In this document: one piece after another, positions 54,353 to 61,177 of the stretch
Layout of the letters: each line of letters opens with the position of its first letter
Numbering within the stretch: the stretch's first letter is position 1
Assembly: GCF_018524365.1 (NCBI RefSeq)
Contig: NZ_JAEKFT010000013.1
Span: 1 to 64,000, forward strand
Length of the DNA: 64,000 nt
Direction of reading: 5' to 3'
Origin: Denitromonas iodatirespirans
Lineage (GTDB): Bacteria > Pseudomonadota > Gammaproteobacteria > Burkholderiales > Rhodocyclaceae
Program-made: the position numbers and the translations under genes
Notes under the pieces: generated by a model
Told to the model about the DNA's origin: nothing
Seen by the model: the letters and a program-made list of their open reading frames with translations, nothing else
Databases searched by the model: none

Positions 54353-54429
54353 GGGCCTTTAGCTCAATCGGTTAGAGCAGCGGACTCATAATCCGTTGGT
54401 TGCGGGTTCAAGTCCCGCAGGGCCCACCA
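54353..54429 (+). tRNA. tRNA-Ile (CAT anticodon, isoleucine-2 type)
   Basis: A complete 77-nt cloverleaf including an encoded CCA: a 7-bp acceptor stem GGGCCTT/AGGGCCC with a G-T pair, D arm GCTC/GAGC, anticodon loop CTCATAA with CAT at 54387-54389, and T arm GCGGG/CCCGC with loop TTCAAGT. The CAT anticodon fits Met or lysidine-modified Ile2; the overall sequence resembles Ile2 tRNAs more than elongator Met (from memory), so the identity is probable, not certain. Its 3' part is the left attachment site of the element that follows. Confidence 0.85.
54382..54429. repeat. Left attachment repeat (attL) in tRNA-Ile
   Basis: The 3' 48 nt of the tRNA gene, running from the anticodon stem to the CCA. 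It is repeated at 61130-61177 with a single difference (A at 54410, G at 61158, in the T-loop). Direct repeats at this spacing (6,748 bp) bracket the integrated element. Confidence 0.93.
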
Positions 54430-54468
54430 ATAGCCACGCGGGTTTTAGCCGCTTTCGACGGCACGTCG

Positions 54469-54498
54469 TTTCTACAAACTCGCCCCCTTTTCTACAAA
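54469..54498. repeat. Two TTTCTACAAA direct repeats beside attL
   Basis: TTTCTACAAA occurs at 54469-54478 and 54489-54498, 20 bp apart, 40-70 bp inside attL. The core TTCTACA recurs near attR. Best explained as integrase arm-binding sites; this is an inference from position and repetition. Confidence 0.55.
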
Positions 54499-54527
54499 AG
54501 GCACCGTCACCTGTGGCGTTGCGAGCG

Positions 54528-54601
54528 TTTTGTCATCGTTTTGCAGCCATTTTGTCACTCTCAGTATTTCCGCGTACTTTCGGGCTAAAACTGTGACAAA
54601 A
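54528..54601. repeat. TTTTGTCA repeats upstream of the cargo gene
   Basis: TTTTGTCA at 54528-54535, TTTTGTCAC at 54550-54558, and the inverted copy GTGACAAAA at 54593-54601. They lie between the arm-like sites and the cargo gene, and could be operator sites for that gene or further recombination-protein sites. The stretch is AT-richer than the host sequence. Confidence 0.4.
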
Positions 54602-54631
54602 AGCGCGCAAAGCTAGGGCGTCGGCATAAAA

Positions 54632-55450
54632 TTGGCGCCTATCGCTCTTTTGCAACCACATGAAATAGCTGAAGCTTTTTTTGGCACCTATGCCAAAACA
54701 CCTGCAATTCCACAGGAGCAACTCAGCGTCCAATCCACCTGCCGCACCACGTTGATAGCCATGTATCATGGCGCAGCGTACAGACTGACAGGGCCCGCAG
54801 TGTATAAACAAGAGTTCCGTGGCTGGTCCCTTCGCTGGGCACACATCAAGCAACTCCCTGCTTGGATATGGGACGGTTATCCGGTTTTCTTACCAATAGC
54901 ACTTATGGTTGCCCATCTCTCGATTGCATACGTGCTTGGCCTCGGGGATGGTTTGAAGCAGCTAAATCGCGTGGTAGCGGCAGCCCTGCAAATCTTCGGC
55001 GTGATGTGGATTGTAAAGTCAATCGATTCGAACCTTCGACTGTTCAAATTGCGGCCCATGAAAGAACGCCTAGCTACATATCTGCGGCGCATCCCCTTGC
55101 GGATGTACTCGACAACTGTCTATCTCAAGGGAGCCAATCTTGTTTCCAGAAGTGGTTTTGTTGGAGGTCGTATATCGCAAAGCCGAAGCGGACAGAGTTT
55201 AGAAGAGCGCATGGCGGCACTGGAGGGGCAAATCAACTCGATTTACGCACGCTTTGATGACGAACAAAGGGCTACCGACAAGAAGCTGAGCGATCTTCGA
55301 ACGGAAGTTGATCGACAGATCAATGATGTCGCAACCACCACAAAGAACTTAGAAGAGAGCATCAAGAAACAGTCGGATGATGATGTTGGCGATCAAATCA
55401 TGGGCATGCTTTGGATCGTCCATGCCGCGATTGCCGGCATGTACACCTAA
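54632..55450 (+). CDS. Cargo membrane protein with C-terminal coiled coil
   Basis: An unrecognised protein between attL and the integrase. It has two hydrophobic segments (about residues 82-105 and 112-132 of the 272-residue frame, around FLPIALMVAHLSIAYVLGL and VVAAALQIFGVMWIV), a basic stretch, and a coiled-coil-like charged region (about 185-250) followed by a short hydrophobic end (MGMLWIVHAAIAGMY). The start is uncertain: TTG 54632 (the longest frame) or ATG 54761 (229 residues). The frame is AT-richer than the surroundings and has no family match that I can name. The only plus-strand gene of the element and in its usual cargo position, so possibly an accessory (e.g. phage exclusion) protein; this is speculation. 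Confidence 0.5.
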   Translation: MAPIALLQPHEIAEAFFGTYAKTPAIPQEQLSVQSTCRTTLIAMYHGAAYRLTGPAVYKQEFRGWSLRWAHIKQLPAWIWDGYPVFLPIALMVAHLSIAYVLGLGDGLKQLNRVVAAALQIFGVMWIVKSIDSNLRLFKLRPMKERLATYLRRIPLRMYSTTVYLKGANLVSRSGFVGGRISQSRSGQSLEERMAALEGQINSIYARFDDEQRATDKKLSDLRTEVDRQINDVATTTKNLEESIKKQSDDDVGDQIMGMLWIVHAAIAGMYT

Positions 55451-55483
55451 CCATGCCACGACATCCGCAGCACCTCTCGGCAG

Positions 55484-60216: not shown

Positions 60217-60239
60217 GCGAACAGATTGCCACTGTTCGC
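60217..60239. promoter_or_regulatory. Inverted-repeat operator of the element's operon
   Basis: GCGAACAG (60217-60224), 7-bp spacer, CTGTTCGC (60232-60239), a perfect 8-bp inverted repeat overlapping the -10 box and spacer of the promoter at 60223-60251. A third half-site TGTTCGCAAAA (60186-60196) covers the start codon region of the regulator gene and equals the copy at 60233-60243. This arrangement suggests repressor binding and autoregulation. Confidence 0.6.
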
Positions 60240-60251
60240 AAAAACAGTCAA
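60223..60251 (-). promoter_or_regulatory. Promoter of the element's operon
   Basis: Minus strand: TTGACT (60246-60251), 17-bp spacer, CAATCT (60223-60228). The -35 box is good and the -10 poor; the inverted-repeat operator covers the -10 and part of the spacer. Confidence 0.4.
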
Positions 60252-60277
60252 TAGTAGGCATATGCGATTTATCAGCC

Positions 60278-60302
60278 AAAAAAAACCGGCTTTCGCCGGC
60301 TT
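60278..60302 (-). terminator. Terminator of the XRE repressor gene
   Basis: On the minus strand, CCGGC-GAAA-GCCGG followed by eight T, 18 bp beyond the repressor stop. It separates the repressor transcript from the downstream operon on the same strand. Confidence 0.8.
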
Positions 60303-60319
60303 CTGGATTCCCGCAGCAT

Positions 60320-60910
60320 CTAGCCTGCGCGCTCAATCCTTTCCCTGATTTTCTCCTGCAACTCCTGCATAAAGCGGGGATCTTTCGCCTTCTCCGCCAG
60401 CTTTGCCAAATCTTCTGGGCTTCCCTCTCCGACCGTTTCAGCCAAGAATTCTGCCGCAACCGAGATGTGTCTGTAGGTGCTCGGATCCTTTGCTTCCAAC
60501 ATCGAAGCGATCAGAGTCAGCAAGGCCTCAAACTCATCCTCGTCTATCACGGCCAGAATGGCAGGAAACAACAACATCCCCCCCATCGCCAGCATCGGGC
60601 TATTCCGCAGCCGCACCAATGATCGCAGCCCCTCCCTGCGCTTCATCGGTTCTTCCGTTCCACAAAGCAACCAGTTCGGAGTTACCTCAAGGTGCTCGCA
60701 GATGACGAGCAACTCGCGGGCACCAGGCTTCGTCCTTCCGGACTCATAGTCATGAAGTGCCGTCCTGGACAGTCCCGTAGCCTTGTGCAGATCTGCCAGT
60801 GAAAAGCCCTTTCTTTCCCGGCACTGGCGAATTCGAACAGCCAGTCCATCCATAGGGGACTGCGGCAGCGCGCGAGGCTCTTTCTTTTTTTGCTCAGATG
60901 TGATCTTCAT
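60320..60910 (-). CDS. XRE-family repressor-like regulator
   Basis: A 196-residue protein at the right end of the element. The HTH domain (about 25-85) is a clear XRE type: RIRQCRERKGFSLADLHKAT, GLSRTALHDYESGRTKPG and the HLEVTPNWLLCGTE tail. The C-terminal ~100 residues are helical and charged with no LexA/CI-type protease motif, so it is not a self-cleaving repressor. It ends at its own terminator and must have its own promoter upstream of 60910. It is probably the maintenance repressor that keeps the element quiet (inference). Confidence 0.8.
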   Translation of the reverse strand: MKITSEQKKKEPRALPQSPMDGLAVRIRQCRERKGFSLADLHKATGLSRTALHDYESGRTKPGARELLVICEHLEVTPNWLLCGTEEPMKRREGLRSLVRLRNSPMLAMGGMLLFPAILAVIDEDEFEALLTLIASMLEAKDPSTYRHISVAAEFLAETVGEGSPEDLAKLAEKAKDPRFMQELQEKIRERIERAG

Positions 60911-61129
60911 GAATTGTCCAAGGTCGCATTGCCGATTCCACGCACGTGATTATAGGCAGTCGAGCACAGGTGATGCGCCAGCGCATTGTCGAAGGCACCG
61001 GGACTGGCAGGGAGGGGCTTCTACATTCCGGAATGTCCCACAGCAATGACGGGCCTTTCAGGGATGCCGCACGCGGACCATTGTAGAAGGATTCAAGGAC
61101 AAGCCGTTGATCTGACGACTCTTGCGAAT
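60911..61129. other. Non-coding region between the repressor gene and attR
   Basis: A 219-bp stretch without a credible ORF. It holds the perfect 14-bp palindrome ACATTCCGGAATGT (61023-61036) and two TTCTACA-type motifs (61019-61025 forward, 61082-61088 inverted) that match those beside attL. Promoter elements for the repressor must lie here but are not obvious. Confidence 0.5.
61019..61088. repeat. TTCTACA motifs beside attR
   Basis: Forward TTCTACA at 61019-61025 and its reverse complement TGTAGAA at 61082-61088, matching the core of the two direct repeats near attL. Together they suggest integrase arm sites on both arms of the element's attP. Confidence 0.5.
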
Positions 61130-61177
61130 GGACTCATAATCCGTTGGTTGCGGGTTCGAGTCCCGCAGGGCCCACCA
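61130..61177. repeat. Right attachment repeat (attR), tRNA-Ile remnant
   Basis: A copy of the 3' 48 nt of tRNA-Ile lacking the 5' half (no acceptor 5' strand, no D arm). It cannot fold into a tRNA and is the host-derived remnant after insertion. It differs from the intact gene by G at 61158 instead of A. Confidence 0.93.

Follow-up and report, generated by a model that had tools for sequence, protein, structure and literature searches.

A small integrated element with a rolling-circle initiator at a tRNA-Ile gene of Denitromonas iodatirespirans, and its relatives

Small mobile elements with few genes are known in several forms. The PICMIs, as characterized in PMC10803314, are 67 elements of the Vibrionaceae with a mean size of 6.7 kb, and one of them, PICMI115, is reported there to use rolling-circle replication and to be packaged in concatemer form. 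For integrative mobilisable elements (IMEs), the account in PMC5704250 lists toxin-antitoxin genes as a maintenance device. Here we describe an element at positions 54382-61177 of a 64,000-nucleotide stretch of Denitromonas iodatirespirans DNA (assembly GCF_018524365.1, contig NZ_JAEKFT010000013.1), hereafter the window. The element sits in the 3′ end of a tRNA-Ile gene and is probably a member of a family of compact, repressor-controlled integrative rolling-circle plasmids, and one whose core genes are all open.

Insertion site and genes of the element

The element is bounded by direct repeats at 54382-54429 and 61130-61177, identical at 47 of 48 bases and 6,748 bp apart from start to start; an initial annotation, made from the letters of the window, had proposed just such a 48-bp duplication of the tRNA 3′ end around 6.75 kb. 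We judge a 47/48-base repeat at a tRNA 3′ end, without a computed statistic, to be far beyond chance. The target has a CAT anticodon and was labelled Met by ARAGORN; tRNA-Ile, the label given initially, is the better one because the gene shares 87% identity with an annotated tRNA-Ile gene of E. coli. It lies behind a sigma-factor gene that we take to be rpoD.

That the DNA between the repeats was inserted follows from congeners in which the site is empty. The query joined the two flanks in the window with one copy of the tRNA repeat, and alignment contiguous across the junction was required. Six of the nine other genomes of the genus have the empty site (G145, G606, G567, G110, G588 and G060). 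Both flanks also match in G175, spaced about 50 bases wider than in the query, and the query had no match in G621. Other genes, ResIII and DNA-methylase, occupy the site in G634. Flanking repeats and empty sites were thus both found, as site-specific integration of an integrative rolling-circle plasmid would have it.

The G634 genes (L209, contig C132, 1924-7135), by content a type III restriction-modification system, lie behind the sigma-factor-linked tRNA. Because they occupy the same position, the site may be a minor insertion hotspot.

The features of the element are the following.

54353-54429, plus strand: tRNA-Ile(CAU), the integration target (ARAGORN)
54382-54429: left attachment repeat, the 3′ 48 bases of the tRNA gene
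54761-55450, plus strand: membrane/coiled-coil protein, an orphan and the cargo of this copy; 229 amino acids (aa) from ATG, or 272 aa if read from the TTG at 54632
55484-56461, minus strand: int, tyrosine integrase, 325 aa (PF00589, E 8e-17)
56471-56695, minus strand: xis, DUF4224 protein, likely excisionase (PF13986; PHROG 4764, excisionase, E 4e-21)
56713-56886, minus strand: orf57, conserved micro open reading frame (ORF) of 57 aa, with a 4-base overlap with the gene upstream; 10 of 16 loci have a homologue
56883-57620, minus strand: hth245, helix-turn-helix (HTH) and coiled-coil protein downstream of the initiator, in 12 of 16 loci
57604-59394, minus strand: gpa, HUH rolling-circle initiator of P2 GPA type, 596 aa (PF05840, E 1.7e-69)
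57733-57756, minus strand: presumed nick site and double-strand origin inside gpa, TGGACTCGTGTAAATAACTGTACG (codon-level conservation of the DNA)
59405-59536, minus strand: tm43, single-span membrane protein of 43 aa with a basic C-terminal tail, overlapping hth217 by 4 bases
59533-60186, minus strand: hth217, conserved HTH regulator (family conservation), first gene of the replication row
60217-60239, no strand assigned: palindromic operator-like site before hth217, GCGAACAGTGGCAATCTGTTCGC, that is GCGAACAG-N7-CTGTTCGC, adjoining a -35-like hexamer (promoter read by eye)
60276-60302, minus strand: terminator-like hairpin and T-run behind the repressor gene (read by eye)
60320-60910, minus strand: CI-type repressor, 196 aa, a separate upstream unit (PF13560/PF01381; homologue in 16 of 16 loci)
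61130-61177, plus strand: right attachment repeat (empty site in congeners)

On the minus strand the separate repressor gene is followed by seven packed genes in the order hth217-tm43-gpa-hth245-orf57-xis-int, whose neighbours, by their coordinates, are separated by no more than 17 bases where they do not overlap. The plus-strand membrane protein gene fills the gap between int and the tRNA; its product has weak coiled-coil matches only, and relatives were absent from the other 149 of the 150 family genomes searched and from the plasmid collection. Pfam and PHROGs confirmed the integrase, the DUF4224 protein, the GPA-type initiator and one clear HTH regulator that had been named initially. The two further HTH proteins on that list, hth217 and hth245, fall below Pfam cut-offs and are conserved as families, and both micro-ORFs gain support from their conservation. 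Residues R194, K217 and H303 of the integrase, which we take to be catalytic, lie in alignment columns where at most one of 14 sequences differs. In the initiator, HHDxxPHWH and Y380/Y384 are the same in all 7 copies aligned; these are presumably the catalytic HUH motif and tyrosine pair.

None of the element's nine ORFs matched a structural or packaging gene above cut-off in Pfam or PHROGs, the weak matches to tail PHROGs covering coiled-coil or HTH stretches only. Nor did AlpA, primase or terminase families match at E 0.1. The Pfam scan gave no match to the Zot/pI assembly ATPase and none to a relaxase, and no oriT search was made. PADLOC, run on six window proteins and four cargo proteins, returned repressor HTH matches (capH, RmrA and others) and PDC-M04A for a DUF3800 protein of the related locus L112.

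A family with a recurrent layout and exchanged modules

The initiator of the window was matched in 20 of 199 genomes of the host family, its own included; for 14 of the remaining 19 the flanks were examined as well, and six of these have the same neighbours. An alignment of four hth217 proteins led to 11 named loci in genome contigs. Their hosts are Rhodocyclus tenuis (Rhodocyclaceae), Azonexus hydrophilus, Dechloromonas sp. CZR5, and metagenome-assembled genomes labelled Zoogloea, Sterolibacterium, 'Ca. Nitricoxidireducens', Burkholderiaceae and others. Two loci (L143, L152) are, judged by length and position, on the same contigs as L107 and L111 and were counted once; 20 loci were compared in all, incomplete ones included. 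Profiles applied to 16 loci found the repressor and hth217 in 16 each, tm43 in 15, a tyrosine integrase in 14, hth245 in 12, GPA in 11 and orf57 in 10, where the hth217 and GPA counts are partly a matter of selection because most loci were found via one or the other. The layout, whole or partial, is also present in L193 and L028. Between genera this small layout recurs with identities of 23-87% in hth217 and 35-73% in GPA. Together with the empty sites and the conserved presumed nick site described below, this synteny supports the initial proposal of a compact rolling-circle integrative element without virion or transfer genes.

Direct repeats of 17-89 bases flank 12 of 17 loci (the 16 and L193). 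At 10 of the 12, ARAGORN called a tRNA that the repeat overlaps (CAT anticodon 2, Lys 2, Ser 2, Phe 3, Glu 1); the 19-base repeat at the Glu site, in L110, is only partly inside the tRNA. In L148 the repeat has the tRNA-Phe sequence seen in L147, with no tRNA called, and L108 has a 17-base repeat, tRNA-Leu-like by eye, so that element's ends are less sure. The 11 full-length elements with repeats at both ends measure 6,595-7,905 bp, nine of them at a called tRNA gene. L150 is internally deleted and spans 3,694 bp; L153 ends at a contig edge.

The tm43 gene was sought only in the loci of this analysis; its alignment was too variable for a contig search. It was found in 18 of 19 loci (15 of 16, missing in L112, and all three further members), with a weak match in place in a twentieth, L028. 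Its start, by coordinates, falls within the stop of hth217 or a few bases from it. In 17 of 17 copies scored the product is 41-49 aa long, has a single hydrophobic stretch and carries a C-terminal charge of +2 or +3. The best 17-residue hydropathy mean is 1.94-3.05, while 1.8 was reached by 3% of 339 small control ORFs. We read tm43 as a possible membrane anchor or docking peptide.

Models of hth217 and hth245 had mean pLDDT of 72.5 and 62.9, and three fold searches with them found nothing better than HTH-type matches, all with E above 0.001. hth245 weakly matches PHROG repressors and, in five of six members, a 'tail assembly protein' family (best E 0.0011). At E 0.01 neither protein matched any of 50,697 phage records; in viral contigs there was one short match for hth245 and four for hth217. 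In 11 of 16 copies the stretch from the repressor to hth217 contains a palindrome with arms of at least 7, a count made without a control run.

Modules are exchanged within this layout. Rep_1 (PF01446, above cut-off) fills the slot between tm43 and hth245 in L145, L147 and L151. The L147 Rep_1 matches 15 phage records, and the two inspected are Inoviridae, at 40% (the best) and 32% identity. A serine recombinase (PF00239) takes the place of the integrase in L110 (11298-12803). The integrases of L112, which has GPA, and L151, which has Rep_1, are 92% identical and use the same tRNA-Ser; the two loci share a 1,712-bp stretch of 86% identical DNA that starts at the end of hth245, takes in the integrase and reaches the tRNA-Ser repeat, and a further 114 bp at 90% identity at the other end. 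Yet the identity of the hth217 proteins is 23%, and the initiators are of different families. Likewise the window and the Zoogloea element share 78% identity in integrase and 36% in GPA.

Two side observations concern the same region. L108 has a serine recombinase between gpa and orf57 (L108:9525-10493), and a small ORF with an R.YDPLR.EW-like motif (by eye) precedes gpa in L108, L110, L112 and L113 and was not seen in the window.

Families of toxin-antitoxin type occur in 9 of the 11 full-length mapped elements. The cargo includes SocA_Panacea (L108, L111, L147), PIN (L148, L151, L193 and, below cut-off, L110) and ParE (L113, L149), and L112 carries the DUF3800 protein matching a candidate defence family. 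Pairs of this type would help to retain the element.

The presumed nick site was recognized by its conservation as DNA. In the family's 13 GPA genes, L028 among them, conserved residues have the same codon in a mean of 47% of comparisons. In 9-codon windows (n=505, mean 0.47, sd 0.10) the top ten score 0.86-0.96, and all overlap GPA residues 544-561 around PWTRVNNC. The DNA encoding this stretch, TGGACTCGTGTMAATAACTGTACG, is present with at most 3 mismatches in 13 of 13 family GPA genes. The best 24-mer differs at no more than 5 positions in all 80 viral GPA loci, one of which is L028, at no more than 4 in 7 of 7 other GPA loci of family genomes, and at 4 in Kosakonia phage Kc166BP. Members without a GPA gene in the sequence examined (L145, L147, L150, L151, L153, L156, L157) have best 24-mers with 7-10 mismatches. 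We presume that this 24-base site is a nick site and origin of P2 type. The origin of P2 lies within gene A, and the in-gene position seen here agrees with that. As far as sequence can tell, the element carries both its own HUH initiator and an origin to match.

For a GPA tree, 100 copies were reduced to 43 rows by removing viral near-copies (>85%) and short ones. One group (99/100) unites ten of the 12 element rows, and the GPAs of the window and L107 fall outside it, beside L027 and L028 with weak support. The backbone is lacking in L027.

Plasmid relatives exist too. An hth217 match was found in 11 plasmid records and covers at least 80% of the length in three complete plasmids, of strains named ANT_J12B, ANT_J25B and ANT_J29B. 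Plasmid pA12BJ1 (Janthinobacterium, 7,799 bp) has the repressor, hth217, tm43, hth245 and TrfA, with a weak Rep_1 match (28.0 bits, cut-off 33.2). pA25BJ1 and pA29BJ1 (6,345 and 6,346 bp) are annotated with rep, a plasmid recombination protein, VapC and an HTH protein, which is hth217; our scan of pA25BJ1 found Rep_1 (53 bits), Mob_Pre (the recombination protein), hth217, and repressor-like and tm43 matches. The three plasmids are not named in the portion of the Polaromonas plasmid paper that was available.

An hth217 profile matched 34 of 395 genomes of the host family, ten of them strongly (E 2e-42 or lower, window included). The match in G124 was confirmed by synteny; the other 23 are weak and short, and G745 alone among them was inspected. 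In a class-wide sample six of 369 genomes matched: the window's, G433 (E 1.8e-15, contig end) and four weakly.

Several results weigh against reading the loci as a family of integrative rolling-circle plasmids. A strong or syntenic match in only 11 of 395 genomes would also fit slow decay. Clear repeats were not found in L107, L144, L145, L146 and L153. The backbone varies: L112 is without tm43, hth245 was not found in L108, L149, L150 and L153, and L108 has a serine resolvase in the hth245 place. No GPA is present in any plasmid member, so a free state is not shown for any GPA member, and pA25BJ1 has no hth245 match. Constraining the 12 element GPAs together gave p-AU 0.063 (L116 and L118 also removed) in an approximately unbiased test that counted member L028 as viral, and their single origin is neither shown nor firmly rejected. 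No excised circle has been observed. Against these stand the synteny, ends and exchanges described above, and we regard the loci as a mosaic family of integrative rolling-circle elements that is apparently undescribed. No published description was found by accession, plasmid name or topic in a search that left preprints and most subscription literature outside.

Proposed life cycle and routes of spread

From its genes we infer how the element may live. In the quiet state it would rest in the tRNA 3′ end, with the tRNA restored, silenced by the CI-type repressor. On derepression the single row hth217-tm43-rep-hth245-orf57-xis-int would be read, Xis and Int would excise a circle of about 6.75 kb, and GPA would nick the origin inside its own gene to begin rolling-circle replication; Int could later reseat the circle. 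Cargo near the ends would aid retention; it is of toxin-antitoxin type in most of the mapped relatives and, in this copy, a membrane protein. Movement from cell to cell would employ a helper that the sequence does not name.

The element may rely on a helper, as suggested at the outset. Zot was found in one of seven element-bearing host genomes, a search whose reach excludes virulent or foreign helpers, and Phage_portal in one of eight, namely the window's own, which is equally uninformative on such helpers; neither marker is common to the host genomes. The portal gene of the window's genome (C3:87929-88675, in L212, G000:C3:78001-97000) may belong to a tailed prophage. Genome G116 has two Zot loci (L213, L214), one of them beside a tRNA-Pro about 40 kb from its element, and the element shows no DNA similarity to either.

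Among routes of spread, packaging by a tailed phage can be put forward tentatively: the element would be a minimal satellite like the PICMIs, its rolling-circle concatemers packaged by the headful or cos machinery of a helper. Its size near the PICMI mean, its lack of capsid genes and its CI-type control agree with this, as do the replication and packaging reported for PICMI115 (PMC10803314, as above), a nick-site motif common to P2-like phages, the weak tail assembly matches of hth245, and the L028 member, which adjoins a P2-like prophage. Such neighbours are, however, expected by selection because that record comes from a viral-contig collection, and the failure of AlpA, primase and terminase to match and the single portal-positive host genome speak the other way. 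Conjugation is a possibility of similarly modest standing. The element would then be a non-canonical IME moved by a conjugative system, with the HUH initiator or an unseen oriT serving as relaxase. No relaxase match is present in its ORFs, the known cases need the coupling protein TcpA, and GPA is not named among relaxase-like families in the sections of PMC5704250 consulted; the same source does have Rep_Trans/MobT and Rep_1 initiators acting in transfer of the ICEBs1/Tn916 type, and a plasmid recombination protein is annotated in pA25BJ1 and pA29BJ1 (Mob_Pre by Pfam in pA25BJ1).

We consider it doubtful that the family is a lineage of integrative filamentous-phage satellites, in which a P2- or plasmid-type initiator would supply single-stranded circles for extrusion by a helper and tm43, cap- or coat-like, would dock or cap the DNA in the exit complex of the helper. 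The Inoviridae matches of the L147 Rep_1, a size like that of the 15 matched phages (5.8-7.3 kb), the short, single-span, basic-tailed tm43 and the naming of pDolos as a satellite of single-stranded DNA phages (PMC11389934, in its accessible part) would suit this route. It is countered by the rarity of Zot in host genomes, by the lack of DNA similarity between the G116 element and the two Zot loci of that genome, by a tm43 profile that found nothing in the inovirus loci compared, and by the lack of a known packaging signal. Were it true, the element would leave the cell without lysis while encoding no virion gene itself. The other origin offered initially, descent as a remnant from a P2-like or filamentous prophage, is highly unlikely: GPA, repressor and integrase are phage-like in kind and Kc166BP is a 6,014-bp circle of only such genes, but the small layout recurs between genera with a narrow size range and its own repeats, and hth217 and hth245 are unmatched among the phage records.

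The same gene order was not found inside a known prophage or integrative and conjugative element. The divergent member L028 (IMG/VR 3300025308_000005, 5626-11819) has mutS on one side and, on the other, a P2-like prophage whose end there is tRNA-like (Asn by eye); it lies beside that prophage and not inside it. It was recovered via a GPA search of viral contigs, and the single GPA gene of the record is its own. The prophage has Phage_GPO, terminase and portal genes. We rejected the idea that the L028 element is its early region: the prophage has its own integrase near its far end, and its 27-base repeat pair (24 identical) stops before the element.

Comparison with known systems

The proteins hth217 and tm43 mark a small, recognizable group of apparently hitchhiking DNA in the Rhodocyclaceae and related betaproteobacteria. 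Initiators of phage and plasmid type, and tyrosine and serine recombinases, are exchanged in one fixed regulatory frame, with integrated and plasmid relatives. The family offers a testable case of how minimal a mobile element can be and of the role of a conserved membrane peptide in transfer.

P2-like phages share with the element the GPA-type initiator, the same DNA motif in or near the end of its gene, and a repressor and integrase of like kind, but the element is without capsid, tail or terminase genes, has its integrase last in the row, and encodes hth217 and hth245, which are absent from the phage collection. Kosakonia phage Kc166BP (MW317014), a circular record, comes close in having only integrase, repressor, regulators and GPA; it differs in having no match to the hth217, tm43 and hth245 profiles. 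This record (L001) is filed under Caudoviricetes.

The PICMIs resemble the element in size, minimal content and reported rolling-circle replication, but they are defined, in the description given by PMC10803314, by int, alpA and prim at fis, whereas the family has GPA or Rep_1 and tRNA sites, and the element itself has no AlpA or primase match and sits at tRNA-Ile. Non-canonical IMEs with rolling-circle initiator relaxases have in common with it the integration/excision module and an HUH initiator, and toxin-antitoxin genes, carried by most of its mapped relatives, serve IMEs for maintenance; in the element itself no relaxase was recognized by Pfam. Like the element, pDolos is a small replicon, one that uses a filamentous phage, and differs as an autonomous plasmid by the title of its own paper. 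The plasmids pA12BJ1, pA25BJ1 and pA29BJ1 are the relatives that share hth217 (all three), repressor-type and tm43 matches (the two scanned) and a rolling-circle initiator. They differ in having no annotated integrase (the integrase profile was negative in the two scanned), in their Rep_1-type initiators, joined in pA12BJ1 by TrfA, and in a recombination/Mob gene in two. Set beside these systems, the family is new in combination and content and known in kind.

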